Shown in pieces: positions 5,285 to 46,380 of a stretch of DNA of 48,371 nt. The stretch comes from Candidatus Scalindua rubra (GTDB taxonomy: Bacteria > Planctomycetota > Brocadiia > Brocadiales > Scalinduaceae). The DNA lies in assembly GCA_001723765.1 (NCBI GenBank), contig MAYW01000014.1, positions 1-48,371 of the forward strand, read 5' to 3'. The first letter of the stretch is position 1. Every line of letters begins with the position of its first letter. Position numbers and translations under genes: made by a program. The notes below the pieces were generated by a model. The model saw only the letters and a list, made by a program, of their open reading frames with translations. It was not told the origin of the DNA and ran no database searches.

Positions 5285-5864
5285 TCACGGAATAACACGG
5301 AAAATCACGGATTTTATAACGAAAAAAAATTATCATGTTAATCCTGTGTTTGAACCTGGCGCTGGTTCACTGTCAAGGGTTTGATACCCACGGACAAAGT
5401 GAAGTCGCCAATAATAGTCATTGTCTGTGCCCGCCGTGCCGGATCGGACGGGCAAGTCTTGTGGATAAAGCATATTATTAGTTAATCGTTATTTGATATT
5501 GTTTTTTATAATAATTCGTACCAATTTGTAGCTGGTAAACAGGAGTATTTTTACCCTTGACAAGTACCACTAATAATGTAGACTTTGTCATTAATATCTA
5601 TTGTGAAATCTAAGAGATTCTTCGGCTAAGGTCTCGGAATACCATAGTAAGATCTTGGTTTTATGATAGATATATCATAATGTTGCTATTGTAAATTGCT
5701 TCTATTTTTACCTGTTTCTGAAAAAATATATGCTTATTAAATAAGAATGTTTTTTTAGAGGAGGGTTTTTTATAAAAATACCACTTTTTCTTAACCTGTT
5801 TATCAATCCAGTTTGCAATAACATACCAACGCAAATCAAATAATTTTACATGGAGGGAAATATT
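5285..5864. other. Long leader region upstream of the formate dehydrogenase genes
   Basis: About 580 bases without a supported gene. A TTGACA at 5557-5562 is followed after 16 bases by TAGACT, a weak sigma70-like promoter about 280 bases before the fdh start; this is only suggestive. I saw no clear molybdenum-cofactor riboswitch. A GC-rich patch near 5430-5455 contains inverted GCCCG/CGGGC words resembling other repeats in this window. Confidence 0.3.
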
Positions 5865-8800
5865 ATGGAGATTACTCGCAGAAAATTTATAAAACTCAGT
5901 GGTCTTGGAGTCGCAGCCGTTGTCCTTGCTGATATAGGATGCGGCCAGATACGTAAGGTAGAGACACAAAAACAACAACCATTAAAAGCAGTAAGTTATA
6001 AAGAAGCTCGTACCATATGTTGTTTCTGCTCAGTAGGCTGCGGGATAATTACTTCTGTCAGTAACGGTAAAGTTGTTAATCTCGAAGGTGATCCAGACCA
6101 TCCTATCAGTCGTGGCGCGTTATGTAGTAAAGCCGCCGGCCTTTCTTTCCTGCCGAACAGCCCGCAGCGAATTACAAAACCAATGTACAGAGCACCTTTC
6201 TCCAATGAGTGGAAGGAAGTTAACTGGGATTTTGCATACTCAAGAATCGTAAAGAAGATAAAAAAGGTAAGAGATGAAAACTGGATTGAAAATGAAAATA
6301 TCGGAGGGACTGAATACAGGGCTAACCGCTGCGATGCTCTTGCTTTTTATGGAGGCGCTGCGAACACTAACGAAGAATGTTATCTTTACGGGAAAATGGC
6401 AAGGTTACTGGGGATAGTTCAGCTTGAACATCAGGCCCGTATCTGCCATTCGGCTACTGTTGCCGCCCTGGCGCCTTCTTTTGGAAGGGGCGCGATGACG
6501 AATCACTGGAATGACATTCAGCATGCCAGGACAATCCTGATCCAGGGAAGCAATGCGGCGGAGAACCACCCTGTTTCCATGAAATGGGTGGATAAGGCAA
6601 AGGAAAACGGCGCTACTGTAATTCATGTTGACCCGAGGTTTACGAGAACTTCTTCCCAGGTTGATATCTTTGCACAGATCAGGCCGGGAACCGATATAGC
6701 GACTCTCGGGGCTATGATTAACTATGTATTGAGTGAAGACCTGTACGATGAATCTTATCTGAGGAATTTTACTAATGCACTTTTCCTGGTGAAAAAAGAT
6801 TTCTCCTTTCATGAAGGTCTTTTCTCAGGCTTTGACTCCAATAATAAATCTTATGATAAAAGCTCCTGGGAATATGTTATTCATGAAGATGGAAAACCGG
6901 CAAAAGCATCGAACCTGAATGACCCCGGTACCGTGTTCTCACATTTGAAGAAGCACTACGGACGTTATGACTTTGAAACCGCTTCAAAGATAAGCGGAGT
7001 TCCTGCAAAGAAAATAAAAAAGATTGCCACTGTCTTTGCCAACAACCGTCCCGGTACTATCATGTATGCCCTGGGTCTCACCCAGCACACAACTGGTGTA
7101 CAGAACATTCGCTCCCTTGTAGTTTTGCAGCTCCTTCTCGGGAATATCGGTGTGTCCGGGGGCGGGATAAATGCATTGAGAGGACATTCAAACGTCCAGG
7201 GATCTACTGATATGTGCCTGCTTTTCCATATCCTGCCGGGTTACCTTGCTTCTCCTACGCACAAGCAGCCGACACTCGATGACTGGAATCAGAATTTTGG
7301 AAAGTTTAAGGGGAAATTTCTCGTAAATCTGCTCAAGGCCTGGTTTGGTAAAAACGCAACAAAGGACAATGGTTATTTATATGAGCACCTCCCTCTCAGG
7401 AACGGGCTGGAGAATTATTCAGCCGTAAAGCTCTTTGAGAATATGGTTAATGATAAAATCAAGTATTTCCATGTCATGGGGCAGAATCCCATGGTTACCA
7501 ATCCAAACATTAATGCCGTACGGGAAGGGCTTTCAAAGCTGGAAATGCTGGTCTGCCAGGAATTGTTTGAAAGCGAAACATCTTCTTTCTGGAAGTCTCC
7601 CGGGACAGACCCTGCCCGGATAGCCACAGAGGTATTCTTGCTGCCTGCAGCATCTTTCGTAGAAAAAGAGGGTACTATTACAAACAGCGGGCGATGGATC
7701 CAGTGGCGTCAGAAGGCCATTGAACCGATAGGTCAGGCCAAGAATGATTGTGAAATCATTGATACACTTTTTACAAGGCTCAGGGAAGAGTATAAACAAT
7801 CACCCAATCCGGTAAACCAGGTCCCGATCCTTCAGGCAGACTGGAACTATCAACTCAGTTATGTATATGAGGACGTATTGAAAGAGATTAACGGTTATGA
7901 TCTGAAGACAGGCAGACCGGTTAAGGGTATTGGCAGCCTGAAGGATGATGGAACTACCTCTGCCGGTGAATGGATTTATTCCGGCTGCTACAGTGAAGGA
8001 CACAACCTTACCAGGAGACAGAATGACAAATATGATCCACAAAAGATGGGATTGTTTCCAAAATGGGCATTCTCATGGCCGGGCAATGTAAGGGTACTAT
8101 ATAACAGGGCATCCTGTGATTCTGAAGGAAAACCACGTGATCCGAAACGGGCCCTGATCTGGTGGGATTCGGCAACCATGAGCTGGGCCGGTGTTGACAG
8201 ACCTGATGTAAAGGGTATTAACTCTGAACCCGGTTCGGAAAAAGGCCTTGTTGCCTTTAAGATGGTTGCGGAAGGAAACGGCAGGATATTTACCGCTCCT
8301 TACCATTCCAAAAAGGATGACGCAGTCTGGGCGAAATCCGGCGCCAACAAGGATGGCCCTATTCCGGAATTCTATGAACCCGTTGAGAGCCCGACAGAGA
8401 ACCTCCTGCATCCTAAGGTCTCCACCAACCCGGTAGTGATCTATCCAAGGCTGAAGAATCTGCAGCCTGTAGGCGGCTCAAGTGAGTATCCTTATGTCTT
8501 ATGCACCTCTGCCTTGACTGAGCACTGGGGCGGTGGTTGTATTACGAGAAACAACCCCTGGATTAATGAGCTGATGCCGGAGGTATTCGCTGAACTCAGT
8601 GAAGAGCTGGCGGAAAAATTAAACGTGCAGAACGGAAGGAGAATCAAGCTTATTACCAGCAGAGATGAGATTGAGGTTGTTGCTATGGTAACGAAGAGGA
8701 TTCATCCATTGAATGTTAACGGCCGTACCGTAGAAGTCATATGGGCTCCTCAGCATTGGGGATTTCAAACACTCAGCCCTGCCTGGAGTGTGAATCTGCT

Positions 8801-8876
8801 GACGATTGATGTTGGAGATCCAAATACGTGGATACAGGAAACAAAGGCGTGCCTGTGCAACGTTAAAAGGGCTTGA
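5865..8876 (+). CDS. fdnG: Formate dehydrogenase (FDH-N type) catalytic subunit, Cys form
   Basis: About 1003 residues. The start at 5865 is favoured over an ATG at 5850 because GGAGGG precedes it and it places the twin-arginine motif RRKFIK at residues 5-10, so the folded enzyme should be exported by Tat. A [4Fe-4S] site is formed by C52, C55, C59 and C87. The active site reads ARICHSATVAALAPSFGRGA with Cys194 where many FDH-N enzymes carry selenocysteine, followed by the conserved His. A C-terminal molydopterin-binding domain follows (ALTEHWGGG and APQHWGFQT). It oxidises formate to CO2 using a molybdenum or tungsten bis-pterin cofactor. Genes for FdhE, a desulfurase and the beta subunit follow on the same strand. 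The electron-accepting gamma subunit (cytochrome b) is not seen in the window. Confidence 0.93.
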   Translation: MEITRRKFIKLSGLGVAAVVLADIGCGQIRKVETQKQQPLKAVSYKEARTICCFCSVGCGIITSVSNGKVVNLEGDPDHPISRGALCSKAAGLSFLPNSPQRITKPMYRAPFSNEWKEVNWDFAYSRIVKKIKKVRDENWIENENIGGTEYRANRCDALAFYGGAANTNEECYLYGKMARLLGIVQLEHQARICHSATVAALAPSFGRGAMTNHWNDIQHARTILIQGSNAAENHPVSMKWVDKAKENGATVIHVDPRFTRTSSQVDIFAQIRPGTDIATLGAMINYVLSEDLYDESYLRNFTNALFLVKKDFSFHEGLFSGFDSNNKSYDKSSWEYVIHEDGKPAKASNLNDPGTVFSHLKKHYGRYDFETASKISGVPAKKIKKIATVFANNRPGTIMYALGLTQHTTGVQNIRSLVVLQLLLGNIGVSGGGINALRGHSNVQGSTDMCLLFHILPGYLASPTHKQPTLDDWNQNFGKFKGKFLVNLLKAWFGKNATKDNGYLYEHLPLRNGLENYSAVKLFENMVNDKIKYFHVMGQNPMVTNPNINAVREGLSKLEMLVCQELFESETSSFWKSPGTDPARIATEVFLLPAASFVEKEGTITNSGRWIQWRQKAIEPIGQAKNDCEIIDTLFTRLREEYKQSPNPVNQVPILQADWNYQLSYVYEDVLKEINGYDLKTGRPVKGIGSLKDDGTTSAGEWIYSGCYSEGHNLTRRQNDKYDPQKMGLFPKWAFSWPGNVRVLYNRASCDSEGKPRDPKRALIWWDSATMSWAGVDRPDVKGINSEPGSEKGLVAFKMVAEGNGRIFTAPYHSKKDDAVWAKSGANKDGPIPEFYEPVESPTENLLHPKVSTNPVVIYPRLKNLQPVGGSSEYPYVLCTSALTEHWGGGCITRNNPWINELMPEVFAELSEELAEKLNVQNGRRIKLITSRDEIEVVAMVTKRIHPLNVNGRTVEVIWAPQHWGFQTLSPAWSVNLLTIDVGDPNTWIQETKACLCNVKRA

Positions 8877-8958
8877 CTTGATTGAATATTGAAGAATTGA
8901 AGGATTGAGGAATTTAAGAATACCTAAATTCCTTAATTAACTATGGAGAAAAAGGCTG

Positions 8959-9786
8959 ATGAATGATGTTCAAGATAATATTGATAAACTTAAAGTTGAA
9001 AATGTACATTTGTCTGCATATTATGATATGTATCTTGCATTAAAAGAACTGCAGGATACGTATAAAGAAAAGATTCAGTTCTCTTCTTTTAATGATGACG
9101 AAATAAGACAACAGATTCTGGCAGGAAAACCATTAATCCTGAATAGTGGAATTGATCTTTCCGGAATGACAACATTCTTAATGGATATTTTCAAAGTATA
9201 TGCTCAATTTACAAGTCTTAAGACTGATGAAGCCCTTACAGCAATTGAAAAATTAACACCCGATCTCCCGGAAATATTAGAAGAATTTTTATATCTGAAA
9301 GGGGATACGCTGATAAAGGCGCACGTTTCTGATTCGCTCCCTGATGAGATATTGATTTTCCTGATTAAAAATACACTTACTCCTTTATTGGAAAAGTATT
9401 CTACTTGCGTGATTTCGTCTATTGACTTTGACAGTTGGGAAAGGGGATGCTGTCCTGTATGCGGCCATCCACCGGGTCTGGCGGAATTAAGGAAAAGTCC
9501 TTCGGGACGACAGAGGTATTTGTTTTGTTCGCTGTGTCATACTTCGTGGCCTTTTCAGAGGCTCAAATGCCCTTTCTGTGAAAAACTGGAAGAGAAAGAA
9601 ACAGAATACCTCAGCTTCCCTGATGAAGAAAACTACCGTGTAGATGTTTGTAATTCCTGTAATTCTTTTATTAAAACCGTTATTAATAACAATGCAGAGT
9701 TGCCTCCGGTATTGCTGGATTGGAGTTCCCAGTATGTTGACGATACTGCAATCCAAAAGGGTTATAAAAGAGTGGCTTCAATGTAA
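8959..9786 (+). CDS. fdhE: Formate dehydrogenase accessory protein FdhE
   Basis: A 275-residue protein with four C-x2-C pairs in its C-terminal half (CPVCGHP, FCSLCHT, CPFCEK, CNSCNS), the hallmark of FdhE, a rubredoxin-like metal-binding factor needed for maturation or activity of exported formate dehydrogenases. It starts 82 bases after fdnG with a GGAG just upstream and is followed 13 bases later by the desulfurase frame, supporting one transcript. FdhE is known to bind the catalytic subunit in the cytoplasm before Tat export; that is family knowledge, not visible here. Confidence 0.9.
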   Translation: MNDVQDNIDKLKVENVHLSAYYDMYLALKELQDTYKEKIQFSSFNDDEIRQQILAGKPLILNSGIDLSGMTTFLMDIFKVYAQFTSLKTDEALTAIEKLTPDLPEILEEFLYLKGDTLIKAHVSDSLPDEILIFLIKNTLTPLLEKYSTCVISSIDFDSWERGCCPVCGHPPGLAELRKSPSGRQRYLFCSLCHTSWPFQRLKCPFCEKLEEKETEYLSFPDEENYRVDVCNSCNSFIKTVINNNAELPPVLLDWSSQYVDDTAIQKGYKRVASM

Positions 9787-9799
9787 CTGATTCATTTTC

Positions 9800-10962
9800 A
9801 TGAAAGATGACATAATTTATCTGGATAATGCATCAACTTCGTTTCCTAAACCTGAAACGGTTTACAGCGAAACAGATACCTTTCTCAGAAAATGGGGCGT
9901 CAATATCGGCAGGGGAGAAAATCGGCTGGAGTATGAAGCCGCTTCAAGGGTACTGGAGTCAAGAAGAAAGATAGCCCGGTTTTTTGGTATCAAAGATTAC
10001 AGAAGGCTGGTCTTTACATGCAATGCGACTTTGGCGTTAAATCTGGCACTGAAAGGAGGGTTGAAAGAATCTGACCATATATTGGTTGGCCCTATGCAGC
10101 ATAATTCAGTGATGCGTCCGTTACACGCTTTAACGGAAACCGTCAGTACTGGTGAACTCCGTTATGATGGAGACGGGTTGCTGGATTTAAATTCTCTTGA
10201 AGAACAGATAACGCCACAAACAAAAATGGTAGTCATAAATCACGCCTCAAATGTAAATGGTGTGATCCAGCCGCTCCGTGCAATTGGCAGGATTTGCCGG
10301 GAAAAGGACTTGATATTATTAGTGGATGCCAGCCAGAGTTCGGGAAGTATTCCTCTTGATGTAGAGGAGTGCAATATTGACCTTCTTGCGTTTACAGGGC
10401 ATAAAGGACTGCTGGGCCCCCTGGGGGTAGGCGGCCTCTATGTGGGAGAGAGGATACTTTTGAACCCGATCATAGAGGGGGTACAGGCTTTGCTTCTGAA
10501 TTAGAGCGTCAACCGAGAAATTTACCGGAGGGTTTTGAGGCCGGTACAAGAAATACACCCGCAATTATAGGACTGGCTGCAGGGATTGATTTTATAGAAA
10601 ATATTGGTGTGTCTGCTATTTCCAGGCACAAATCTGTCTTAATCAAAAGATTGAAAACCGGTCTGGAAGATGTAGAAGAAGCAGCAATATATCACTTTGA
10701 TTCAGAAAATAATGAATCGTGCGGAGTGCTTTCTTTTACCATAGAAGGATGGAATATTGATGATATTGGTAAGGTGTTAAACAGCCAAAACCTTGTAGTA
10801 AGAGGAGGGTTGCAATGCGCACCTCACGCGCACCGCATACTTGGTACGTTTTCTGAAGGTACCATCAGGGTAAGTCCGGGGTATTTTAGTACCGATCATG
10901 AGATAGATTCATTTTTGCAGTCTGTCAAAGAAATTACCGTGTCTAAAATGTATCAAACTTAA
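9800..10962 (+). pseudogene. Cysteine desulfurase family protein, one-base frameshift
   Basis: A class V PLP enzyme split by a frameshift. The first frame (9800-10504) contains the N-terminal substrate region (YLDNASTSFPKPE), H101, D176 and the PLP lysine K202 in TGHKGLLGPLG. The second frame carries ASELERQP-like sequence and EAGTRNTPAIIGLAAGIDFI, ending with the active-site cysteine loop RGGLQCAPHAH. One extra G in the G5 run at 10477-10481 would restore ...IIEGGTGFASELE and one 387-residue protein, the normal size. It resembles the TIGR01977-type desulfurases. Between fdhE and the beta subunit, its likely role is sulfur supply for FdhD-type sulfuration of the molybdenum cofactor. Either a sequencing error or a recent mutation; all catalytic residues survive. 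Confidence 0.88.
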
Positions 10963-11043
10963 GAATTTGTAAAAGGATAAATTTCCTTTAAAAGCTGAAA
11001 TTAAGGATAAAAGTATTTCTAATCTTTAAACGGAGAGATAAAA

Positions 11044-11727
11044 ATGTCAGAACCTTATGCTGTATTAGTAGACGTTTCAAAATGTACAGGATGCCGTGGC
11101 TGTCAGGTGGCCTGTAAGCAGTGGAATAACCTGCCCGCAGGACATTCGGTTCAAACAGGAACATATCAGAACCCCAAGGGGCTCAATCCGTCTACGTGGA
11201 ATGTGGTCCTCTTTAATGAAGACTTTCTGGAAAAAGATGGTGAAAAACAGGTTCATTCCTTCTTTAGATTACATAAATGCATGCATTGTACAAAACCGGT
11301 TTGTCTGGACGTCTGCCCGCCAAAAGCCATATATAGAGATGATACCGGAGCAGTCATAATTGATCAAAACAAGTGTAACGGAGTAGGAGCTTGTGTAGAA
11401 GCATGTCCATGGGGTATTCCACAATTAGACATTCAGGCAAGTAAAGCATCAAAGTGTAACTTTTGTATAGATCGGATAAAGGATAATAAAAAACCAGCGT
11501 GCGTCAATACCTGTGTTGGAAATGCATTAACCTTTGGAACAAGATCTACTATTTATGCGATGGCTGAAGAAAGGTTAAAGGCGTTAAAACCCAGGCATCC
11601 TGCCGCATCCATATATGGTACCGATAAAGATACTTTCTTTGGCGGACTCAGCGATATTTATGTTCTCCCTGAAAGACCACATTACTACGGACTAGAGTGG
11701 CCCAGTCTGGCTGACGCAGATGCGTAA
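11044..11727 (+). CDS. fdnH: Formate dehydrogenase iron-sulfur (beta) subunit
   Basis: A 227-residue four-cluster ferredoxin subunit. Cluster motifs in order: C14-x2-C17-x2-C20-x3-C24 (KCTGCRGCQVAC), KCMHCTKPVCLDVC, KCNGVGACVEACPWG and KCNFCIDRIKDN with a later CVNTC. This is the arrangement of DMSO-reductase family beta subunits that carry electrons from the molybdenum subunit. It starts with a GGAGAGAT ribosome site 82 bases after the desulfurase. Unlike E. coli FdnH it lacks a C-terminal transmembrane anchor, and no gamma subunit follows, so electrons must go to a soluble acceptor or to a partner encoded elsewhere. Confidence 0.92.
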   Translation: MSEPYAVLVDVSKCTGCRGCQVACKQWNNLPAGHSVQTGTYQNPKGLNPSTWNVVLFNEDFLEKDGEKQVHSFFRLHKCMHCTKPVCLDVCPPKAIYRDDTGAVIIDQNKCNGVGACVEACPWGIPQLDIQASKASKCNFCIDRIKDNKKPACVNTCVGNALTFGTRSTIYAMAEERLKALKPRHPAASIYGTDKDTFFGGLSDIYVLPERPHYYGLEWPSLADADA

Positions 11728-11802: not shown

Positions 11803-13116
11803 TTATGCTCCAGTCTTGTGATCATCAAGTTTGAACTTGGTTGCCTTATCATAAGCATTAATAGCTTCTTCATGACGACCTAAATTATCAAGAAAAACTC
11901 CTTTATTATACCATGCCTTGTGATCGATAGGTTTGATCTTGATGGCTTGATCAAGAGCCGCTATAGCCTCTTCATTACGATTTAATTTACCAAGAACTAA
12001 CCCCTTTTGGTAACATGTCTCGTAATCATCAGGTTTGATCTTGATGGCCTGATCAAGAGCCGCTATAGCCTCTTCATGACGATTAAGACTAACAAGAACA
12101 ACCCCCATGTTGTACCATGTCTCGTAATCATCAGGTTTGATCTTGATGGCTTGATCAAGAGCCGCAATAGCCTCCTCGTGACGATCAAGACTACTAAGAA
12201 TAATGCCTTTGTTATTCCAGGCCTCTTGATAGTCAGGTTTAATCTTGGTTGCCTTATCATAAGCCTCAATAGCCTCTACAGTATTACCTAAGTTGTCAAG
12301 AGCAACCCCTTTCCCATACCATGACCTGTGATAATCAGGTTTAATTTTGATAGCCTTATCATAAGCTTCAATAGCCTCCACAGTACGATCTAAGCTGTCA
12401 AGAGAATATCCTTTATTATACCAGGCCCTGTGATCATCAGCTTTTATCTTGGTGGCCTGATCAAGGGCAGCTATAGCTTCCTCATGATGATTTAGACTAC
12501 CAAGAATAACCCCCTTGTTATACCATGCCTCGTAAACATCAGACGCCAGAGCTAACATACTTTTCAATACAGTTATCGACTTGTAATACTCACCAGCATA
12601 ATAAGCAACCGCTGCTTTGCCCATAAGACTATCAATCATCTTTTCGTCTTTATTTCTCTCGTCTCTAGCATTGGTATCAGAAAGTGAGCGACCGCCTAGA
12701 TTAAGTGCCAGTCTGTCCAGTTCATTTTCAAAATCCTTAAACAGGTCATACTGATATGAACCACTGAGGAAGGTATCACTGTGACCACAATCCTCAAGCA
12801 TTACGGGAATAATGGTAAGTTTCATATCAGATACATCCTGGGCGATATTATAAGCCCTATTAAGCTCCTCATCTCGGAAGCAATGATTTTTGTCATCTTT
12901 CTCCCGCAAAGTGGATTTACTAATACAAACAACAAAAAAATCACTCTTATTAATGGTCTTCTCGACTTGAACCTCCCATTTTTCTGGTTTGATATCCATT
13001 CTATCAAAGCAGACTTTTAACTCTCTGCCCTTCATGCCCTCATGGACTTTCTTAACCTTGTCCATGTCTTCTACGGCACAACATAGAAAAACACGATCTT
13101 TTCCTAATTTAAACAT
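11803..13116 (-). CDS. TIR domain protein with C-terminal TPR array
   Basis: 437 residues. Residues about 7-140 form a TIR/TIR_2-type domain: VFLCCAVEDMDKVKKVHEGM, then KVCFDRMDIKPEKW, a strand-rich FFVVCISKSTL and an acidic helix HCFRDEELNRAYN where TIR NADases carry their catalytic glutamate. From about residue 155 there is one degenerate and seven clear 34-residue TPR units with the core WYNKG...EEAIAALDQAIKIKP. Several TPR units are nearly identical in DNA, pointing to recent tandem duplication. Bacterial TIR-TPR proteins act in NAD-consuming immune signalling or in protein assembly; enzyme activity is inferred only. It is divergent from a cNMP-binding/FHA gene. Confidence 0.85.
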   Translation of the reverse strand: MFKLGKDRVFLCCAVEDMDKVKKVHEGMKGRELKVCFDRMDIKPEKWEVQVEKTINKSDFFVVCISKSTLREKDDKNHCFRDEELNRAYNIAQDVSDMKLTIIPVMLEDCGHSDTFLSGSYQYDLFKDFENELDRLALNLGGRSLSDTNARDERNKDEKMIDSLMGKAAVAYYAGEYYKSITVLKSMLALASDVYEAWYNKGVILGSLNHHEEAIAALDQATKIKADDHRAWYNKGYSLDSLDRTVEAIEAYDKAIKIKPDYHRSWYGKGVALDNLGNTVEAIEAYDKATKIKPDYQEAWNNKGIILSSLDRHEEAIAALDQAIKIKPDDYETWYNMGVVLVSLNRHEEAIAALDQAIKIKPDDYETCYQKGLVLGKLNRNEEAIAALDQAIKIKPIDHKAWYNKGVFLDNLGRHEEAINAYDKATKFKLDDHKTGA

Positions 13117-13457
13117 TTTACAAATAAAATGGGTTTAAGATTATTTCACCCTTAATCAAATCCGAAATACACCTAACTTCAATAAATAAGTTTAAAATTT
13201 TAATAGGTCCACAACCTGACTAACTTATATCAGAGTACAAAACCCATGTCAATATCTAGACCTACAAAGTAAAATACCGTAAATAATATTGCCCATTTCT
13301 AAAAGGTTAGAAATTCTGGGAATTTATTTGCTTTAGAATTTTGGTACTGATAATATACGCTGATAGACGATTCGCATTATCTTATTTGAGTTGCTAGTTC
13401 TTCAAAAGTTTGTGCGTATGCCATACGAAATTTATTGTTTTTGGGAGGTGTATTATA
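13117..13457. other. Divergent intergenic region between TIR-TPR and cNMP/FHA genes
   Basis: About 340 AT-rich bases that must contain promoters for both divergent genes. No clear sigma70 pair or palindromic operator stood out. GGGAGGTG at about 13444-13451 is the ribosome site that sets the start of the rightward gene. Confidence 0.35.
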
Positions 13458-14219
13458 ATGCATCAATCTTTCAAAAAAGGGGAAGTGATAATTAAGCAAG
13501 GTTCATATGAAACCTGTGCATACGTTATCGAAGCAGGAAAAGTTGAAGTATCGAGTGAGGTCAATGAGAAAAAAACGGTTTTTGCGGTCTTAGGGAAAAA
13601 ACAGATTTTCGGTGAAATGGGTTTAATGGAAGACAAACCTAGATCAGCAACGGTTACGGCTCTTGAGGATACATTAGTTTCTGTAATTGATCGTAAGAGT
13701 TTTAATAATCAGTTGGTAAAGAATCCTAAAATACTTTTTCCCATTATGAAGGCACTTTTTGAAAGAGTGAGAACCGGCAACAAAAATATTGTTATGAAAG
13801 ATTGTTTAGGTCCTGAGACATCGAAGACTAAACAATGGGATCCAGACAAAAAAGGACTCGTTATACTTACAGGTTTAAACGATACAAGTATAAAAGCATT
13901 AGGTAGTGTCAGTGTAAAAATAAACAATTTCCCTTTTAAGGTTGGTCGTAAAAGTGTATCAGGTGAAGATGATGTCTTTTCAGACAATGACCTATACCTT
14001 GAAAATGAAACTGATGAGCCTCCCTTTCATATATCATGGAACCACTTCTTAATAGACAGGGTGAAAGGAAAATATGTTATTATTGACCGAGGGAGTAGTT
14101 TAGGTACCATCGTTAATGGCACAAAGATAGAAGAGCCATGTATATTAGACAAAAAGTTGAATGGATTAGTAGTCGGATCGCATAATTCTCCATTTGCATT
14201 TAAACTTGAGATTAAGTAA
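13458..14219 (+). CDS. Cyclic-nucleotide-binding domain plus FHA domain protein
   Basis: 253 residues from ATG 13458, chosen because GGGAGGTG lies nine bases upstream; an earlier GTG-type start at 13410 would add 16 residues with no homology. Residues about 1-115 are a CRP-like cNMP-binding fold: FKKGEVIIKQGSYETCAYVI, FGEMGLMEDKPRSATVTALE. The phosphate-binding cassette here reads GEMGLMEDKPRSATV, so a nucleotide ligand is plausible. No DNA-binding helix-turn-helix follows. Instead an FHA-like domain occupies about 140-253 (FPFKVGRKS, NHFLIDRVKGKYVIIDRGSS, LGTIVNGTKI), a phosphothreonine reader. It is probably a signalling adaptor that links a second messenger to Ser/Thr phosphorylation. Confidence 0.85.
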   Translation: MHQSFKKGEVIIKQGSYETCAYVIEAGKVEVSSEVNEKKTVFAVLGKKQIFGEMGLMEDKPRSATVTALEDTLVSVIDRKSFNNQLVKNPKILFPIMKALFERVRTGNKNIVMKDCLGPETSKTKQWDPDKKGLVILTGLNDTSIKALGSVSVKINNFPFKVGRKSVSGEDDVFSDNDLYLENETDEPPFHISWNHFLIDRVKGKYVIIDRGSSLGTIVNGTKIEEPCILDKKLNGLVVGSHNSPFAFKLEIK

Positions 14220-14326
14220 TGTTGTAAAAAAATGGGTTAAAATAGAAGCAACAGTATTTTCAAGCGACAGGAACAGAGAATCCAATTCCTTGATTTTATC
14301 TCCTTATGATTGGTCAAATAAATTGC

Positions 14327-14355
14327 TTGACACTGGCATTATATATACTTAATAT
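14327..14355 (+). promoter_or_regulatory. Consensus sigma70-like promoter
   Basis: TTGACA at 14327-14332, a 17-base spacer and TAATAT at 14350-14355. This is close to ideal. It lies about 270 bases before the membrane coiled-coil gene and 180 bases before the tRNA fragment. It may serve either the downstream genes or a short RNA; a lost integrase gene is a third possibility. Confidence 0.55.
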
Positions 14356-14533
14356 AATGACAGTTGATACATACTGTAGTCAAATTGTAGTCAATATCAG
14401 CGTAACCAACCAGAAACCACGGTAATCACCAGAATAAAAGCGAAGTTTAACTTATTGTAAAATAAGTGGTAGCGGTATTACAGACGCTAAATCAGACAGT
14501 TACGAAAATAGTTAAAAATACCCTTTTTATGAA

Positions 14534-14577
14534 TGGGGTTCAAGGGGTCGGCCGTTCGAATCGGCTCGCCCCGACCA
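14534..14577 (+). other. 3' half of a tRNA-Pro gene (probable integration scar)
   Basis: Starts with TGGGG (anticodon TGG plus flanking bases) and continues through a variable loop to a T arm GGCCG-TTCGAAT-CGGCT (14550-14566), the 3' acceptor strand CGCCCCG (14567-14573), A73 and an encoded CCA (14575-14577). Position 72 is G, so position 1 would be C: the C1-G72 pair typical of bacterial tRNA-Pro. The matching 5' half (CGGGGCG acceptor, D arm) is absent upstream. Half tRNAs starting at the anticodon loop are the usual scar of tyrosine-integrase elements. With the tRNA reading rightward, the intact gene and the element would be expected to the left, off or across the window. Confidence 0.7.
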
Positions 14578-14619
14578 TTTTTTTACATAACAACACTATA
14601 TGGAGATTATATTTAATAA

Positions 14620-15411
14620 ATGAATCATATTGCAGGTTTTAAGGATTTATATGCAATGGGTAGTTTGTATTTGATTATAGGTGCCATAATAGTTAGTGGT
14701 ATTGTTGTTGCACTCATCTATCGTAGAATTGTGAGAACTCGAGAAAAAATAGAACATAAATATGTGCATGAAACGCAACAATATGATGCTGCTGAAGAAA
14801 AAGATGCTTCCGGTGTTGTAGATGATACAATTGAGTCGAAAGTAGAAATGGAGGAAAAACCGGTTGTTAATCTCGAAGAAATAGATACCGAAATAAAAGA
14901 TTTAAAGGATGAGATTACTACAAAAATTGAAAAGTTAACTTCTGACGTAGAAGGGAAGAAAGAAGAAGTTGTAAATAAAGTAGAGAACATTATTGATACA
15001 AAGGAAGAAGAAGTTATAAAAAAAGTAGAGAACATTATTGATACAAAGGCGCAAGATATATTAAACAAAATTGATGACAGGATTAATAAAGCACTTCAAA
15101 CACAAAAGAATTCAACAGCTTCAGTTATAGAAAAAATGGTTGATTCTTTGCGTGTAGAGGAAGGGGTAGTTGGTATTTCGTCTACTGAAAAATCAGAGGA
15201 AGTAGTCGAAGAAAAGAAAGAATTTGAGGAACCAAAAGAAAGAGATTTAAAAGTACCAGAAGAAGCAAAAACTATAGGAGAATCAGTTGATTTTGATATA
15301 CAGGATTTTTTAGAGAAAAACCCAATTGGCATTTCATCTTCAGACGAATTTAGAGAGGAAGCTGAAGAAAAAGAGGAAATAGATGAAAAAAAAGTTGGAG
15401 ATTCCATCTGA
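14620..15411 (+). CDS. Membrane-anchored coiled-coil protein, probably frameshifted at its 3' end
   Basis: 263 residues: a single transmembrane segment near residues 12-32 (LYLIIGAIIVSGIVVALIY), a basic stop-transfer RRIVRTREK, then a long Glu/Lys-rich coiled coil. Within it, the unit VENIIDTKEEEVIKK is tandemly repeated (about residues 119-146). The annotated end KKVGDSI follows an A8 run at 15386-15393; removing one A extends the frame as KKLEIPSEVEEEVKVEKEEK to a TGA at 15458-15460, in keeping with the acidic tail. So the true product may be about 279 residues. The family is not recognised; it looks like a structural or tethering protein. An ATG with a GGAG about 16 bases upstream marks the start. 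Confidence 0.6.
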   Translation: MNHIAGFKDLYAMGSLYLIIGAIIVSGIVVALIYRRIVRTREKIEHKYVHETQQYDAAEEKDASGVVDDTIESKVEMEEKPVVNLEEIDTEIKDLKDEITTKIEKLTSDVEGKKEEVVNKVENIIDTKEEEVIKKVENIIDTKAQDILNKIDDRINKALQTQKNSTASVIEKMVDSLRVEEGVVGISSTEKSEEVVEEKKEFEEPKERDLKVPEEAKTIGESVDFDIQDFLEKNPIGISSSDEFREEAEEKEEIDEKKVGDSI

Positions 15412-15514
15412 AGTTGAAGAAGAGGTAAAAGTAGAGAAAGAAGAAAAAGACGAAAGATGAGAGTTATTGGTTTATATGAATGAGATTGCCAAAGCAATTT
15501 GTTTTATACGGAAA

Positions 15515-19833: not shown

Positions 19834-19999
19834 GTTTCAATCCACGCTCCCGCACGGGGAGCGACGCTCATTAGTTGATAAATTTCTTTGTTATGAATTT
19901 TGTTTCAATCCACGCTCCCGCACGGGGAGCGACGATTTACTTCCAAATGGCACGCCTCAAATTCTGCGTTTCAATCCACGCTCCCGCACGGGGAGCGAC
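19834..19999 (-). CRISPR. Type I-C CRISPR array, three repeats and two spacers
   Basis: Three identical 32-base repeats at 19834-19865, 19902-19933 and 19968-19999. On the + strand each begins GTTTCAATCCACGCTCCC and ends GCACGGGGAGCGAC; read leftward it ends in GGATTGAAAC, as is standard for type I-C. The repeat has an internal palindrome CGCTCCCcgtgcGGGAGCG. Spacers are 36 bases (19866-19901) and 34 bases (19934-19967). The array lies downstream of cas2 in the direction of the cas operon, so the leader-proximal repeat is 19968-19999. The spacers have no match that I could see within the window. Confidence 0.97.
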
Positions 20000-20182
20000 T
20001 GCTTACTTATAAGTCATTTAAAACAAACTGCTTATTCTTTGCTTTTTGCGAAACCTCGATTTAAGAAAGATAAATTTCCAGGTTGTCAAAGAGCATTGCT
20101 TCTACTTGATGCATTATTAACATTCTTTATGCTTTGCGAACCTGACAGGGAAACTATGTGAACTTCAGGTTCGCAATATCTC
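20000..20182 (-). promoter_or_regulatory. CRISPR leader region
   Basis: 183 AT-rich bases between cas2 and the first repeat. It should hold the array promoter and integration signals. Next to the cas2 stop, GCGAACCTGA (20136-20145) and TCAGGTTCGC (20165-20174) form a perfect 10-base inverted repeat that may end the cas transcript. Assignment as leader rests on position and repeat orientation. Confidence 0.7.
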
Positions 20183-20470
20183 TTAAACAATCAACGGCCC
20201 ATCCTGATCTATAGACTTTTTAGCGCCAACATGCTCCACACGATGTTTCCAGTTTGATCCCAAAAAGTAAAATCTCAGACTGTCCTTTTCAGGATCAATT
20301 TCATCAATTAATCTCTGGCGTAAAACTGTCCATTGTGGAGGGTCAACAATGCACTCAAAGACCGAATACTGCACTCTCTGACCATAGTCCTGACATGCCC
20401 TTGCAACCCTGCGCAGCCGCCGCTGCCCGTTATCTTCTGAAGCAACATCATAACTGACTAATACAAACAT
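20183..20470 (-). CDS. cas2: CRISPR-associated endonuclease Cas2 (type I-C)
   Basis: 95 residues with the Cas2 ferredoxin-like start FVLVSYDVASEDNGQRRLRR (conserved Asp at the end of beta1), QYSVFECIVD at beta2 and a C-terminal GPLIV-like end usual for I-C. It forms the Cas1-Cas2 integrase that inserts new spacers. It follows cas1 by eight bases and precedes the array. Confidence 0.95.
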   Translation of the reverse strand: MFVLVSYDVASEDNGQRRLRRVARACQDYGQRVQYSVFECIVDPPQWTVLRQRLIDEIDPEKDSLRFYFLGSNWKHRVEHVGAKKSIDQDGPLIV

Positions 20471-20478
20471 ATTCTATC

Positions 20479-21510
20479 TTACCTCCACACATATGGCGGA
20501 TAAGCATCCAGATCACCGCGCAGATAACGGGCCATAAGCATTGCCTGCACATGGAAGAGAAGTCCTATTGTCACCTTCTCATTAAGGAATGGATGCACAA
20601 TCTCATCCTGTTTTCTTGTCTGATAAGCTGTAAGTACGGTTTTTCTTGTTTCATCATCCATCAGTACCGCGCCGTTTTCTTTAACTTCAAAACCTTTAAC
20701 CTTCACCTGGCCGAGGTTAATCAGTGAAAATACAAGGCGATCTGCAAGGAATGGGCGAAACTCTTCCATTAAATCAAGAGCCAGGCCGGGCCGTCCGGGA
20801 CGGTCTCTGTGAAGGAAGCCGACCGCGGGATCAAGGCCGACAGTCTCTAACGCCGATCTGACATCATGCATAACAATCGTATAGATAAATGATAAAAGAC
20901 AATTCACCGTATCCAGAGGAGGCCTGCGATTTCGTTCATGAAATACAAAATCTTCTTTCTGTGAAGTAATCAGATAGTCGAATACGCCGAAATAGGTCAA
21001 TGCCGCTTCTCCTTCGATTCCACGTAAAATATCAAGAGGTAATTCTGATTGCAGTCTTTTTAATGAATATGCAAGTTTCTGTGAAGCCATGGTCACAGCG
21101 TTTATTTCAATTTTATCTGAATGATCCCGCAGCACCCGTTCAAGCACTATGCGGCAATTGGCAATTTTGCCGGTCAAAACCGCCCTTGAAATTACAGCCG
21201 ATGTTTCAGGATTATCAGCCTGACGGTACTGTTCACGCCTCAATAGAACATTCCCTGATACCGGTCCCTGTACCTTTGCAAGAAACCGCCCGTACTCAGT
21301 AAGGAAACTTATAGCTACATTCTGCTCCGCACAGTATCCCATCAGATAGGGGCTGCAGGAGACTTGTCCGAAACATACAATTCCACCAATTGTATGCACC
21401 GGAATACGCAGGCGGACATCATTATCTACTTTAACGATAACAGTCTCGCCCTCTTTTGCGAGATATGCTCCCTGCGTTGTAACAAATAAAGTATTCAGGT
21501 GTCTTTTCAT
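20479..21510 (-). CDS. cas1: CRISPR-associated integrase Cas1 (type I-C)
   Basis: 343 residues, the usual I-C length. The N-terminal beta domain is followed by the helical catalytic domain with the metal-binding glutamate in RGIEGEAALTYF (about residue 166), the histidine in FLHRDRPGRPGLALDLMEEF and the following acidic residues (D and E of LDLMEEF). The set is complete, so an active integrase is expected. A 213-base gap to cas4, unusual in this compact operon, holds an inverted-repeat element. Confidence 0.95.
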   Translation of the reverse strand: MKRHLNTLFVTTQGAYLAKEGETVIVKVDNDVRLRIPVHTIGGIVCFGQVSCSPYLMGYCAEQNVAISFLTEYGRFLAKVQGPVSGNVLLRREQYRQADNPETSAVISRAVLTGKIANCRIVLERVLRDHSDKIEINAVTMASQKLAYSLKRLQSELPLDILRGIEGEAALTYFGVFDYLITSQKEDFVFHERNRRPPLDTVNCLLSFIYTIVMHDVRSALETVGLDPAVGFLHRDRPGRPGLALDLMEEFRPFLADRLVFSLINLGQVKVKGFEVKENGAVLMDDETRKTVLTAYQTRKQDEIVHPFLNEKVTIGLLFHVQAMLMARYLRGDLDAYPPYVWR

Positions 21511-21596
21511 GTTATATTTTTTGTTATGCCGGGCACGATACGAAATCCCTTCCTTAAATCACACAGATTCCCATTTCATGGGAATGTTACTAATCC

Positions 21597-21708
21597 TCAC
21601 ACAAAGACACAGAGATCACCAAGAAAACGAAATTAGAAAAACAAGAGATAATAGCTTTTCCCTTTGCCCCGCTGAGCGTGGCTTTGTGATCTTTGTGCCT
21701 TTGTGTGA
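21597..21708. repeat. Inverted-repeat (MITE-like) element between cas4 and cas1
   Basis: Left arm TCACACAAAGACACAGAGATC (21597 onward, 23 bases in all) pairs with the right arm ending CTTTGTGCCTTTGTGTGA (21686-21708); 21 of 23 positions match. About 66 bases lie between. It is non-coding and sits in the only large gap of the cas operon, so it looks inserted. Similar CTTTGTG-rich repeats are common dispersed elements in environmental genomes. Confidence 0.65.
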
Positions 21709-21723
21709 TTACTTTTTTAAATG

Positions 21724-22377
21724 TTATTCTTTTCTACTCTCCATCATCTTTAAAAGATAAGCGCCCGCCTTTCCCTTTTTGCCGCACATTTTTGGCATGC
21801 ATAATTGCTCCAGAGAGCAGCTTTTGCACTTCTTGGAATACTCCGGTTTAGGAGTTATTCCAGTGCTGATAAGTTCGTGCACTTTCTTTGCAGTCTCTTC
21901 AGTCTCTGTTCTTAAGGCCGTGTCAAACACAACATCCTGTCTTCGTCTGGTTGTCCCGTAAAACAGAGATCCTTCGGTAATATTGCAATTGAGCATCTCC
22001 TCAAGACATATGGCCTGAGCGCAAAGCTGAACTTTATCGCAGTTGTCCCTTTTGGGCTTGCCTCTCTTGTATTCCACAGGGAATGGATGCCAGTTATCCC
22101 CCTGCCTGTGAAATTCCACCACATCCGCCTTCCCGATCAGGCCTAGCCGCAGCGACCTGAGCGGCACGCCATATTCAATGCGGATATCCCGGCGTTTTTC
22201 CTGCCCGGCAGTATCAACCTTGTCGTGCATGATCCTGCCTTCGGCAGTGAACAGGTTTTCCTCCCAAATCTGCTCGATGTGGATAAGGGCACACTGTCTC
22301 TCGCAGAATATAATGTGCTGCAATGCCGATAGCAGAACAAGATCATCCTCTGTGTAACAATTAGTCTTATAAGTCAT
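21724..22377 (-). CDS. cas4: CRISPR-associated exonuclease Cas4 (type I-C)
   Basis: 217 residues: QHIIFCERQCALIHIEQIW with the first Fe-S cysteine, RLGLIGKADVVEF (catalytic Asp), PVEYKRGKPK (E-x-K motif), QLCAQAICLEEM (Q-x3-like motif) and C-terminal cysteines CKSCSLEQLCMPKMCG. All nuclease and cluster residues are present. Cas4 trims prespacers and sets PAM and orientation together with Cas1-Cas2. It starts eight bases after the stop of the four-helix-bundle gene. Confidence 0.94.
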   Translation of the reverse strand: MTYKTNCYTEDDLVLLSALQHIIFCERQCALIHIEQIWEENLFTAEGRIMHDKVDTAGQEKRRDIRIEYGVPLRSLRLGLIGKADVVEFHRQGDNWHPFPVEYKRGKPKRDNCDKVQLCAQAICLEEMLNCNITEGSLFYGTTRRRQDVVFDTALRTETEETAKKVHELISTGITPKPEYSKKCKSCSLEQLCMPKMCGKKGKAGAYLLKMMESRKE

Positions 22378-22384
22378 ATACGTC

Positions 22385-22951
22385 CTATTTTTTTCTTCTC
22401 TGTGATCGTGTACGATAGAGTCTTTCAGTAAACCCGCCTTCTTTCAGGAATTCCTTTTCCAGCGCCCTCAACAATTGATCAAGCAGGTAGTTAGTCTGGT
22501 GAATCAGGCATACCATGGTGTTTGCAGCAACTTCCGGAGGCGAAGCCTCGATATAGGGCTTATAAGTCATATAAGACCTATCCCTTTGATAACAGAGATT
22601 TCTGACTTCTTTGGCCCTGGGATTGTCCTTTTCCCAGAGAGGCAGTCTTTTCTGTCTCAGAAAATCCTGAAAATCCAGCAACAGTTCCTCAAGGCTCGCC
22701 CTCGCCACGCCGATGAGCTTCAGCTCGAATTTCTTCGAAGTACCTGACGCCATGCTGCCTTCAGCGATGTTCTGTTTGCCGCTTCGTGCCGCCTGCACCA
22801 TCTGGTCGTGGGTGCGGGAGCGGCGATTGATGAAACAGTCGCAGAATACTACCGTAGCATCATAAACAATCTCCGACATCTGGTAAGATTGTAGCCCCTG
22901 ATAGCCGCCGTGAGGCGGGATGAGTTGAGGGGAATCATTTTGGTTGGTCAT
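22385..22951 (-). CDS. Four-helix-bundle suffix-domain protein embedded in the cas operon
   Basis: 188 residues, mostly helical. LQSYQMSEIVYDATVVFCDC, SRTHDQMVQAARSGKQNIAE, SKKFELKLIGVARASLEELL and the end LLDQLLRALEKEFLKEGGFT match the four-helix-bundle family related to 23S rRNA intervening-sequence proteins and to Avd of diversity-generating retroelements (TIGR04258-like suffix form). The basic motif ARSGKQNIAEG is the conserved loop of this group. It overlaps the end of cas7 by 17 bases and ends eight bases before cas4, so it is translated as part of the operon. It is not a known I-C component. Either a hitch-hiking gene or a functional accessory; no base-use difference is evident by eye. 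Confidence 0.8.
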   Translation of the reverse strand: MTNQNDSPQLIPPHGGYQGLQSYQMSEIVYDATVVFCDCFINRRSRTHDQMVQAARSGKQNIAEGSMASGTSKKFELKLIGVARASLEELLLDFQDFLRQKRLPLWEKDNPRAKEVRNLCYQRDRSYMTYKPYIEASPPEVAANTMVCLIHQTNYLLDQLLRALEKEFLKEGGFTERLYRTRSQRRKK

Positions 22952-24095
22952 TTGGAGTTACCTCATTGTCTTCTTCCTCATGCACTAATTTTTTTAAATT
23001 AATGTTCAACTCTTTTAATTTTTTGTCATCAATAATGACTTTATAGTCATCGAAATTTCTTGCGGGATCGCCCTTCTTTTTCTTATCGTCCTTATTATTC
23101 TTTTCGACTGTAATTCTGCTAAATAATTTGTGTGAAGGTGCGTTGCCTCTCATGTTATCATGCGAGAATACATACAATCCTCTCGTTGCCATTTTCCCTC
23201 TGGCAGCAGCGGTATCATTATTGAACATCCATTCCAATGACTCCCATAAACTAGATAAGTCATCTTCAGACACTTTGTATTTATCTGGATCATTGGGTTC
23301 TAATGCAAAGTATGGATTATAAAAACCATGAGCCACATATAAGGCATACGGGACGGTTGGTTTACGAGCCATCTCGGTTTCTTTCCTTTTCTTATCTGAT
23401 TCTTTTGTGATTGCTTTGCGTGTTATAGCATTATCGAGCCTGAAAATAGGGTCTACTGATTTTGCAAACGTAAACTGAACAGGCCCCCTCACCTGACCTG
23501 CATTCAGGCCTGTTGACAGCACAGCGCCAAACATCCGTATATCATATCGTTCTTCAATAAGTTTCTGTTTTGTTTCATTCCTATCGCCTTCATTAAGCTT
23601 TTTTTTCTTAACTGAGTCTGCCAGTTGCTTTGCATATGGTTTAAGCTTCTTCTTCAAATCTGAATCTTCAACCTCATTAAAGTTCTCTTTTATATCTTTT
23701 TGTTTAAAGGAATCGCCATAATACGATAGTTTGTCCTCATGCAGCTCAAAAGGATCATGTTCTGAAAACCATTGGATAACATCGTCGTCTTTATCTTCTT
23801 CTATTTTGATTTCAATTTGTGGAAATTCTGCACCGACATCGCGAGCGGCTTTAGAAATAAGAGTATTTAAAGCCGTTTCACTCTGTATAAAAATAGGAAT
23901 ATTTTTTGTCATTTGCAGATAATCCCTTACTTTCCTTTTAAGGCATACGTCTGTAATAATTCCGTGCATGGTTTCAGGGTCAACTCGTGGAAGATTTCCG
24001 GCATCAGGGTCTCCATTTGGATTTCCATTTTCAACATCAAATAAAAGTACGAAATCATGTCTTCTTGCTGGATCAGCATGAATATCTTTACTCAT
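22935..24095 (-). CDS. cas7: Type I-C Cascade backbone protein Cas7 (Csd2), long form
   Basis: 386 residues from ATG 24095 (MSKDIHADPARRHDFVLLFD), preceded by GGAG; the open frame extends to 24236 but that part overlaps cas8c and is not Cas7-like. VENGNPNGDPDAGNLPRVDP and MHGIITDVCLKRKVRDYLQ are hallmark Csd2 sequence; FGAVLSTGLNAGQVRGPVQ is the conserved core loop. Usual I-C Cas7 proteins have about 280-300 residues. The extra length is a highly charged insert at about 80-170 (KIEEDKDDDV... to KKKKLNEGDRNET) and a charged C-terminus. Cas7 coats the crRNA. It overlaps the cas8c end by eight bases. Confidence 0.93.
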   Translation of the reverse strand: MSKDIHADPARRHDFVLLFDVENGNPNGDPDAGNLPRVDPETMHGIITDVCLKRKVRDYLQMTKNIPIFIQSETALNTLISKAARDVGAEFPQIEIKIEEDKDDDVIQWFSEHDPFELHEDKLSYYGDSFKQKDIKENFNEVEDSDLKKKLKPYAKQLADSVKKKKLNEGDRNETKQKLIEERYDIRMFGAVLSTGLNAGQVRGPVQFTFAKSVDPIFRLDNAITRKAITKESDKKRKETEMARKPTVPYALYVAHGFYNPYFALEPNDPDKYKVSEDDLSSLWESLEWMFNNDTAAARGKMATRGLYVFSHDNMRGNAPSHKLFSRITVEKNNKDDKKKKGDPARNFDDYKVIIDDKKLKELNINLKKLVHEEEDNEVTPNDQPK

Positions 24096-24504
24096 TGTTT
24101 TTCTCCTTATTTTCTTTCTGTTTTTTGTTCTTAGCTCTTTCTTCGCCGAATTTAGCCCTCTGATGATAAAATCCGAGTGAGAATTCAGCCTGTCCTTCCA
24201 ATGAAAGCGTTTTAGGGTATCCTCCAGCATGATCAATCTCAGATTGAACGGATTCCATTAACTCCTCAAGAGCCTTATATCCAAGTTGCCTTTTGCGTAT
24301 TTTCGGAAAGTGATCAGTTGTCGCTCTCCTTACAAGTGTTCCAAACACTGAAGCTGGCGCAGATGATGCTGAACCATAAAATCGATCTACGAGTGTAGTA
24401 TTGATTTTCCATAGCACCGGCCGCAATTGCGCTTCCTCAAGGATTGATAGAAGTCTACCACACAAATACCCTATTATGTGTCGATTCGGATCAAGCGTTT
24501 CCAT
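24088..24504 (-). CDS. cas11: Probable Cas11c small subunit from an internal start in cas8c
   Basis: Within cas8c, an in-frame ATG at 24504 is preceded by AAAGGAGGGCTTGAAAGAA, a Shine-Dalgarno stronger than those of most genes here, ten bases from the ATG. It would give a 138-residue helical protein beginning METLDPNRHIIGYLCGRLLS. Type I-C systems are known to make their small subunit Cas11 from an internal start in the last part of cas8c, and size and place fit. Translation itself is inferred. Confidence 0.7.
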   Translation of the reverse strand: METLDPNRHIIGYLCGRLLSILEEAQLRPVLWKINTTLVDRFYGSASSAPASVFGTLVRRATTDHFPKIRKRQLGYKALEELMESVQSEIDHAGGYPKTLSLEGQAEFSLGFYHQRAKFGEERAKNKKQKENKEKNNE

Positions 24505-26007
24505 TTCTTTCAAGCCCTCCTTTCTATAAGTTATATGCATTTTTAACGTTGCCATTAAAACATGTTGCGTAGTCATTTTCTTTTCATCAAATATCTTCAT
24601 ATTCCTCATGCACATTACCGCTGCCTCAAGAAGAACTGATGGAGGCTGTTCATCCAAATATGCAGTCCGTAATAGTTGACGGCTTAAATTAGGATTGCCA
24701 ATCTCTACAGCTTTATACGGCTCTTTGGATATATTCGAAGCCTCAATTTCTTTTAGAATCTCAGGTATTCCAAAGCATCGTTTCTCTTTTCCATAAGGAT
24801 CAATAATACGTTGAGCATCAAGAAATGCCTTGAGATTCTGCTGCAATTTGTCGAGTGAAATATTCAGCCAATCTCTGACCGCAATACGACCTTTGTTTGG
24901 AGACAGTACAAGAAGATAGAATTCGTTGCCTGCGATATTGACAGATGCATCCCTCCCGCTCCATGGTGTGTTCAGCATATTTTCCAATTGAATCAGGTCT
25001 GGCGGTGGTGCATTTTTGTCGGCTGAATCAGGTTTGCTCATGAGAATACTCACATTTTTTAACAGATCAGAAGGGTTAATTGTTGTTTCCCCAATTCTTA
25101 GAAGCTGCTCTTCCTTTAACCAAAATAAAGCAAACTGATTGCGTGCAGAATCTGTATTGAGTTTACCGTCCCTGCGATCCTGCGTAATGATTTTGTAATG
25201 CAGTTCGTTTCCGGTAAGATAATTCAATGTTCTGGCAATAGTATCACCACAAATCACACATTGACCAAGGTGAGCTTTTCCTTCAAATATGTGAACCCCC
25301 TCAATATAAGACACAAATGCATCTTTATTATAGGAGTGAAGTGGGTGCGGGGCATTTGATTTGTAAACTTTAACACCAACCGGAATTTTCTTTGCCATTT
25401 GCTGATATTGTCCACAAATTGAACAAATACCTGTTTTGGCTTTTCCTGCATCGGTATTCTGACGTGTGCGTTCTTTCAGTTCTTCCAACCAGAACTGTTG
25501 TATTTCTGGATGTTCAAACAGATGCTTGTCCGCAAACGATCCGTCATCAAAAACAAACGAAACCCAATCTTTATTCAGGATATTATTGAAGTTATTAATC
25601 TTTTCAATTTCTTTACTACGTAGTTTTGAACAAACTATCCATATAGCTGACTTCAAATTCTCGTCCTTAACCAATGGACTTTGACATGTCTTTTGTAAAA
25701 GTTCCAGAAATTTTTTATGCTTATCTTTTGCTTTCTTGTCAGTTCCACCTCCTTTTTGTTTAACGATACCAAAAACATAACCTGCCTCATCAATACACGG
25801 ATGTGCATCTATTCCGCTTGTTTTTCCACAAAACGGCCTCGCTCTATCAATTTCAGTATTTTCTATATAAAGCCTGTTTAAATCATCAAAGCATAGATGT
25901 ACTATCCATTTGATTGGCTTTGACTGGCCGTAAAAGTAATACCCTGGAGGGGGTAATTTTTTACCTGTTTCAAGTCTTCTTCCAAGTTCAATGATTTCCT
26001 TAAACAT
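24088..26007 (-). CDS. cas8c: Type I-C large subunit Cas8c (Csd1)
   Basis: 639 residues from ATG 26007 (MFKEIIELGRR), behind GGAGGGAGTGC and overlapping the end of cas5 by eight bases; the open frame reaches 26055 but that would bury it in cas5. Csd1 features: GYYFYGQSKPIKWIVHLCFD near the N-terminus, two C-x2-C pairs (GICSICGQ and GQCVICGD), and GRIAVRDW in the middle. It recognises PAM and helps R-loop formation. The C-terminal 138 residues probably double as Cas11. Confidence 0.92.
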   Translation of the reverse strand: MFKEIIELGRRLETGKKLPPPGYYFYGQSKPIKWIVHLCFDDLNRLYIENTEIDRARPFCGKTSGIDAHPCIDEAGYVFGIVKQKGGGTDKKAKDKHKKFLELLQKTCQSPLVKDENLKSAIWIVCSKLRSKEIEKINNFNNILNKDWVSFVFDDGSFADKHLFEHPEIQQFWLEELKERTRQNTDAGKAKTGICSICGQYQQMAKKIPVGVKVYKSNAPHPLHSYNKDAFVSYIEGVHIFEGKAHLGQCVICGDTIARTLNYLTGNELHYKIITQDRRDGKLNTDSARNQFALFWLKEEQLLRIGETTINPSDLLKNVSILMSKPDSADKNAPPPDLIQLENMLNTPWSGRDASVNIAGNEFYLLVLSPNKGRIAVRDWLNISLDKLQQNLKAFLDAQRIIDPYGKEKRCFGIPEILKEIEASNISKEPYKAVEIGNPNLSRQLLRTAYLDEQPPSVLLEAAVMCMRNMKIFDEKKMTTQHVLMATLKMHITYRKEGLKEMETLDPNRHIIGYLCGRLLSILEEAQLRPVLWKINTTLVDRFYGSASSAPASVFGTLVRRATTDHFPKIRKRQLGYKALEELMESVQSEIDHAGGYPKTLSLEGQAEFSLGFYHQRAKFGEERAKNKKQKENKEKNNE

Positions 26008-26704: not shown

Positions 26705-26714
26705 ATTTCACCTC

Positions 26715-46194: not shown

Positions 46195-46197
46195 TAC

Positions 46198-46368: not shown

Positions 46369-46380
46369 TTAAATAGGTAT

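Follow-up and report, generated by a model that had tools for sequence, protein, structure and literature searches.

The DNA analysed here, a stretch of 48,371 nucleotides called the window below, is contig C14 of a MAG (5.19 Mb, 443 contigs, 88% complete, 5.4% contamination) from an anammox bacterium of the family Scalinduaceae, order Brocadiales. Its left part carries a formate dehydrogenase-type operon (5850-11727; molybdopterin subunit, FdhE, cysteine desulfurase and FeS subunit) and a divergent pair of genes for a TIR-TPR protein and a cNMP-binding/FHA protein (11803-14219). These are followed by the block studied here (about 14287-15450), which is composed of a promoter-like left end, an arm with paired repeats, the 3' half of a tRNA-Pro gene and a gene for a coiled-coil protein (Table 1). 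To the right of the block lies a cytochrome c peroxidase gene, which does not stand beside the coiled-coil gene in the relatives examined. Further right, the minus strand carries a Type I-C CRISPR-Cas locus (19834-29149; cas2, cas1, cas4, cas7, cas8c, cas5 and cas3) with at least three repeats of sequence GTTTCAATCCACGCTCCCGCACGGGGAGCGAC at 19834-20008; its cas7 ORF (433 aa) is longer than its models, and a 188-aa ORF between cas4 and cas7 (22385-22951) has no PADLOC match. Short tandem repeats of the CCCCCGATTT type at 46138-46474 enter the end of a HicB-like ORF (46358-46642) and give it a repeated IGGH-type peptide.

Table 1. Features of the tRNA-Pro scar and the adjoining gene in the window
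Feature	Position	Strand	Details
Promoter-bearing left end of the block	14287..14372	+	-35 TTGACA 14327-14332, 17-nt spacer, -10 TAATAT 14350-14355 (promoter scan)
Distal attachment arm (putative integrase arm sites)	14373..14529	+	Homologous arms in many of 59 relatives, often several per genome
Paired 10-bp arm repeats TGTAGTCAAA TTGTAGTCAA	14375..14394	+	Pattern, as the paired 20-base repeat TGTAGTCAAANNGTAGTCAA, in 37 of 59 relatives; reversed control in 0
3' half of tRNA-Pro(GGG), attR core	14530..14577	+	Anticodon 14535-14537, T arm, acceptor strand, CCA 14575-14577; 47/48 identity
Coiled-coil protein gene	14620..15411	+	263 aa, N-terminal membrane anchor (by eye), no Pfam match
End of homology with the native C32 locus	15412..15450	+	BLASTN of window against C32 ends at about 15450

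The half tRNA, read directly from the window, has the sequence TGAATGGGGTTCAAGGGGTCGGCCGTTCGAATCGGCTCGCCCCGACCA. By BLASTN of the host's own tRNA against the window, nucleotides 32-79 of the intact tRNA-Pro(GGG) matched this segment and no other (E = 1.4e-19), and the sole mismatch is an A to G change at 14545. The initial annotation had described an exact anticodon-to-CCA copy at 14534-14577; the copy is real and matches the intact 3' half with which a comparison had been proposed, but the copied stretch starts at 14530, four bases earlier, and is not exact. As expected of an integration remnant, the fragment is near-identical to an intact tRNA of the same genome and reaches the tRNA 3' end through CCA. 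The tRNA-Pro(CGG) matches the window through its last 29 nt only, so that the GGG isoacceptor is the source of the half. The intact gene (contig C32, L071 10844-10766) has the 5' start CGGGGCG, which bears out the earlier proline-type C1-G72 reading. The annotation was also right that a 5' half and an integrase are missing: ARAGORN found no complete tRNA in the window, and a phmmer search with 20 integrases against its six-frame translation returned nothing, the control locus L073 being found at 1e-238. No element adjoins the intact tRNA-Pro on C32 either, and the fragment is ectopic on C14 rather than placed on the same replicon in the same orientation with an element in between; with the two on separate contigs, there is no intervening segment of the kind that the annotation had proposed to compare with relatives. 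Since no integrase lies between fragment and intact tRNA, the window scar is a remnant and not an element.

Partial matches to window 14220-14720 were obtained in 53 of the 59 relatives, many of them through the tRNA alone. Arms of about 160 bp of the type found here adjoin 3' halves of tRNA-Pro, tRNA-Ala (GGC type) and tRNA-Gln type in many Brocadiales genomes. Whichever tRNA was copied, most of the copies measured have 160-164 bp between the start of the first arm repeat and the core; two copies with an extra repeat have 172 and 173 bp. The window, in which the repeats are unbroken and this distance is 160 bp, shows the arrangement that defines the family, a repeat pair placed about 162 bp ahead of a tRNA 3' half. 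The pattern of the TGTAGTCAAA-type arm had no match in IMG/VR viral contigs, and phage records gave only short tRNA-like matches to the arm/half module, in two phages.

Whole elements with such arms are present in relatives. In Ca. Scalindua sediminis (G002), a 13.6-kb element bounded by 44-bp exact direct repeats sits at tRNA-Pro, in the order tRNA-Pro, arm repeats, integrase facing the tRNA, element body, arm and half tRNA. The one-contig genome G040 holds an element of the same anatomy at tRNA-Ala (5.7 kb, 50-bp exact repeats). In both, integrase and arm repeats lie beside the intact tRNA. Among 16 integrase relatives, which come from named genomes of Scalindua, Brocadia, Jettenia and Kuenenia and from unnamed Planctomycetota, 13 end 31-56 bp from a tRNA 3' end (Pro, Ala, Gln, Val), and the last integrase codons (DYNLTT) contain the proximal arm repeats. 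Some arms abut directly on the 3' end of another integrase (G030, G040, L164), a layout known from tandem arrays. On contig C31 of G005 (L080 1-18303), two elements with different integrase types lie in tandem at one tRNA-Pro(GGG). The host genome itself retains a family integrase fragment with arm repeats next to tRNA-Gln (C50), and C101 holds an arm on its own; among the intact integrases of the host, the best reach only 31% identity to the family. Viral contigs encode proteins that are at best 23-29% identical to the family integrase. On the co-occurrence of integrase, repeats and tRNA, the repeats are candidate integrase-binding sites. Because arm, spacing and whole elements match, the window holds the distal attachment site of a Brocadiales TGTAGTCAAA-arm family, and we found no description of this anammox tRNA-targeting element family in the open literature searched.

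On C32 the coiled-coil gene and tRNA-Pro lie between gpsA and ftsH, the tRNA next to ftsH and directed towards the coiled-coil gene; this is conserved core synteny. BLASTN homology between the window and C32 begins in the half tRNA and continues through the coiled-coil gene: the alignment runs from the anticodon stem-loop through the 3' half and about 13 further unchanged bases into the gene. To the left of 14530 there is no similarity between the two. The start of C32 homology at this point, with none to its left, is the pattern expected when a tyrosine integrase crosses over in the anticodon loop and places the chromosomal side on the right. This had been proposed from the half tRNA, and the arm repeats on the left agree with it. 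The scar is thus attR, the distal attachment site of an element whose tyrosine integrase has been lost.

The coiled-coil gene has homologues on C32, on C1 and at the gpsA/ftsH locus of relatives; the protein found no relative in public genomes. The C32 gene, to which the window copy is about 80-88% identical, is broken by a frameshift and a stop, and the C1 copy has lost its end, so that the window holds the only undamaged copy in the genome. The second copy of the block on C1 has different flanks, lying beside lysA- and argH-like genes (named by eye from sequence), and has also lost the arm repeats and part of the half tRNA. Its homology to the window stops at 14287, before the cNMP/FHA gene. 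We found no inverted repeats, transposon ends or terminal repeats around the block.

Four Scalinduaceae relatives of genus g2 (G007, G008, G010, G011) still carry the block at its native place near gpsA and ftsH. There, gpsA and the coiled-coil gene are followed by the half tRNA and the arm, both decayed, and then by the promoter and the Ser/Thr kinase and PP2C genes. In G007 this order is cut by a contig end; the contigs of G008, G010 and G011 continue to tRNA-Pro and ftsH. A remnant of the block is present in G009. The T stem of the decayed half in G010 is, by eye, closer to the tRNA of our host than to the intact g2 tRNA, which fits a displaced original half. The tRNA-Pro points to ftsH in g2 and away from it in G004, G022, G034, G037, G040 and the host genome; as these six genomes outside g2 share the C32 orientation, the latter is apparently ancestral, and it is in g2 that the tRNA turned round with respect to ftsH (L076, L077, L079, L137, L139 and L141, against L071 10766-10844). 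By inference, this inversion came after entry of the element, and the action of an integrase between att sites would account for it. The Ser/Thr kinase and PP2C pair lies between tRNA-Pro and the scar in g2 (L076 9513-11760, L077 8081-10328, L141 5664-7911). It is absent from most family members tested and from the host genome, where no close homologue was found anywhere, near the window block or elsewhere. The pair is likely leftover cargo of the ancient element.

A promoter upstream of the half had been noted before, and the promoter-like TTGACA-17-TAATAT is indeed there. Promoter-like sites are no commoner in the window than in shuffled sequence, chance sites being common in AT-rich DNA. 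Each of the six blocks that precede the coiled-coil gene (two in the host, four in g2) carries TTGAC[A/T]-17-TANNAT, the -10 being TAATAT or TAGCAT, and TAAATAAAT is conserved just upstream. The same pair was found in none of 23 other arms (within 110 bases), and between the window and C1 the segment 14287-14356 is 91% identical. In five of the six blocks, arms and half have decayed while the -35, the -10 and the 17-nt spacing were kept, the pattern expected of a domesticated promoter. Since the promoter occurs in all six blocks and in none of the other arms, the coiled-coil gene probably retained the scar as its promoter region; the half tRNA, which is not conserved in the other blocks, is probably passive. 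On C32, a TTGACA/TATCAT pair lies upstream of the intact tRNA, and the coiled-coil gene there may have been co-transcribed from the tRNA promoter. On this sequence evidence we infer that the element end took over as the putative promoter of the coiled-coil gene.

The initial annotation had the element extend to the left. This stands as far as the sides are concerned, the element side being left of the core, where the arm repeats are, and the chromosomal side right, where the coiled-coil gene is; its naming of the cNMP/FHA, TIR-TPR and formate dehydrogenase genes as possible cargo is not supported. We considered that an element carrying them is still in place, with its integrase and the intact tRNA past the contig edge. 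The polarity of arm and half is right for an element on the left, and the patchy occurrence of the formate dehydrogenase operon, found in G003, G015 and the host only among 15 genomes tested, fits mobile cargo. However, the block shared with C1 ends at 14287, and the arm there is joined to different DNA, so that nothing ties the left-hand genes to the element. The window contains no second arm or tRNA-Pro copy to the left, and the intact tRNA-Pro(GGG), flanked on C32 by the coiled-coil gene and ftsH, adjoins no element. Relatives also carry the supposed cargo apart: in G009 a TIR/cNMP-FHA pair stands beside prmC/prfA-like genes without an att site, and behind the formate dehydrogenase operon of G003 and G015 there is neither TIR nor cNMP-FHA. 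On the C1 comparison and the gene order in relatives we rejected the leftward cargo, and an element still present on the left is unlikely. As for these genes themselves, the N-terminal part of the cNMP/FHA protein resembles the cNMP-sensing part of Pycsar TIR effectors (PADLOC PycTIR, 1.7e-15), and the pair recurs with a TIR fragment in G009 (contig C40, L120 6403-7798); the TIR-TPR and cNMP/FHA proteins possibly form a split cyclic-nucleotide signalling or defence module. The formate dehydrogenase operons of G003 and G015 are 87% identical to the one in the window, whose desulfurase, whole in those two genomes, is divided into two ORFs (9800-10504 and 10609-10962).

We considered two other explanations. 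The half tRNA could instead serve the coiled-coil mRNA as a functional RNA leader or a tRNA-like structure, and given a working promoter it would be transcribed the same way as the gene; its T-arm hairpin is kept (-22.3 kcal/mol, z = -2.0), and it is less diverged than the gene. Nevertheless, the half has decayed in G007, G008, G010 and G011 and is half deleted on C1, while promoter and gene persist; the same 3' halves stand at attachment sites without a coiled-coil gene. With no Rfam match and with this decay in relatives, we rejected the RNA leader, which we consider highly improbable. Alternatively, unrelated contigs could have been joined through the 48-base repeat by assembly or binning, and a tRNA half is the type of repeat that confuses assemblers; the contig number and contamination of the MAG given above also speak for caution. 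Against this, the coiled-coil genes of the window and of C32 are about 12-20% divergent, which excludes a mis-join to C32, and C1 and four other genomes show the same order of arm, half and gene together with the promoter. In addition, purM, present once in the bin, lies on C14, which is therefore unlikely to be a stray contig. Such an artefact is the least credible of the explanations, with hardly any probability left to it.

The history that we favour, an attR scar at tRNA-Pro whose element was lost while its promoter end was kept and the block copied to C14 and C1, has in our estimate a probability of about 0.8. A family integrase would recombine an attP that contains a 3' tRNA half with tRNA genes around their anticodon loop, the targets including Pro-GGG, Ala-GGC, Gln-CTG and other tRNAs. 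Integration would restore a complete tRNA at the integrase end, and the original 3' half would come to lie at the opposite end of the element, behind the arm of about 160 bp. In an ancestor of the host and of genus g2, an element would have entered tRNA-Pro(GGG), thereby separating the coiled-coil gene from the tRNA, and its body would later have been lost, the promoter-bearing end staying before the gene. In the lineage of the host, the block of promoter, arm, half tRNA and gene would then have been copied to two ectopic places, in the window and on C1, and the native C32 site would have become free of the element, as it now is. The half tRNA (1 of 48 positions changed) is better preserved than the coiled-coil gene when each is compared with C32, a gap that could point to gene conversion or to a younger event. 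More tentatively, at rather less than even odds, the scar may be a transferable expression unit: the element end would have displaced the tRNA promoter, its own would have taken over, and the unit would have spread to ectopic loci, possibly via a recombinase acting on intact arms.

Half-tRNA scars are routine evidence of lost islands, and the scar in the window is an integration scar of this known kind; what is unusual is that it moved with a neighbour gene and was seemingly kept for its promoter. Islands in tRNA genes with an anticodon-centred crossover correspond to Islander class A (PMC4383910), in which a tyrosine integrase is present, the 3' tRNA fragment lies at the far end and the tRNA is rebuilt at the integrase end. 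The S. sediminis and G040 elements agree with this fully. The window, in contrast, has no integrase, cargo or partner tRNA, its fragment has moved with the neighbour gene to another locus, and Islander would reject it for want of an integrase. It also differs from tandem islands, in which, as for many arms in the relatives, the arm runs straight into the 3' end of the next integrase; behind the half tRNA of the window stands a host gene. An integrase gene that extends into attP is known from Mx8 and SSV (PMC4383910); the family resembles them in the repeats within its last integrase codons, but its integrase overlaps the arm and not the core, and the best intact integrases of our host are distant from it, as noted above.

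The case warns that a lone half tRNA does not make the adjoining genes island cargo. The scar exposes a group of related elements, spread across anammox bacteria, that target several different tRNAs while keeping a fixed att geometry. It also allows the fate of such a scar to be traced through a family, whether it was kept in place, decayed except for its promoter, or moved together with a gene.
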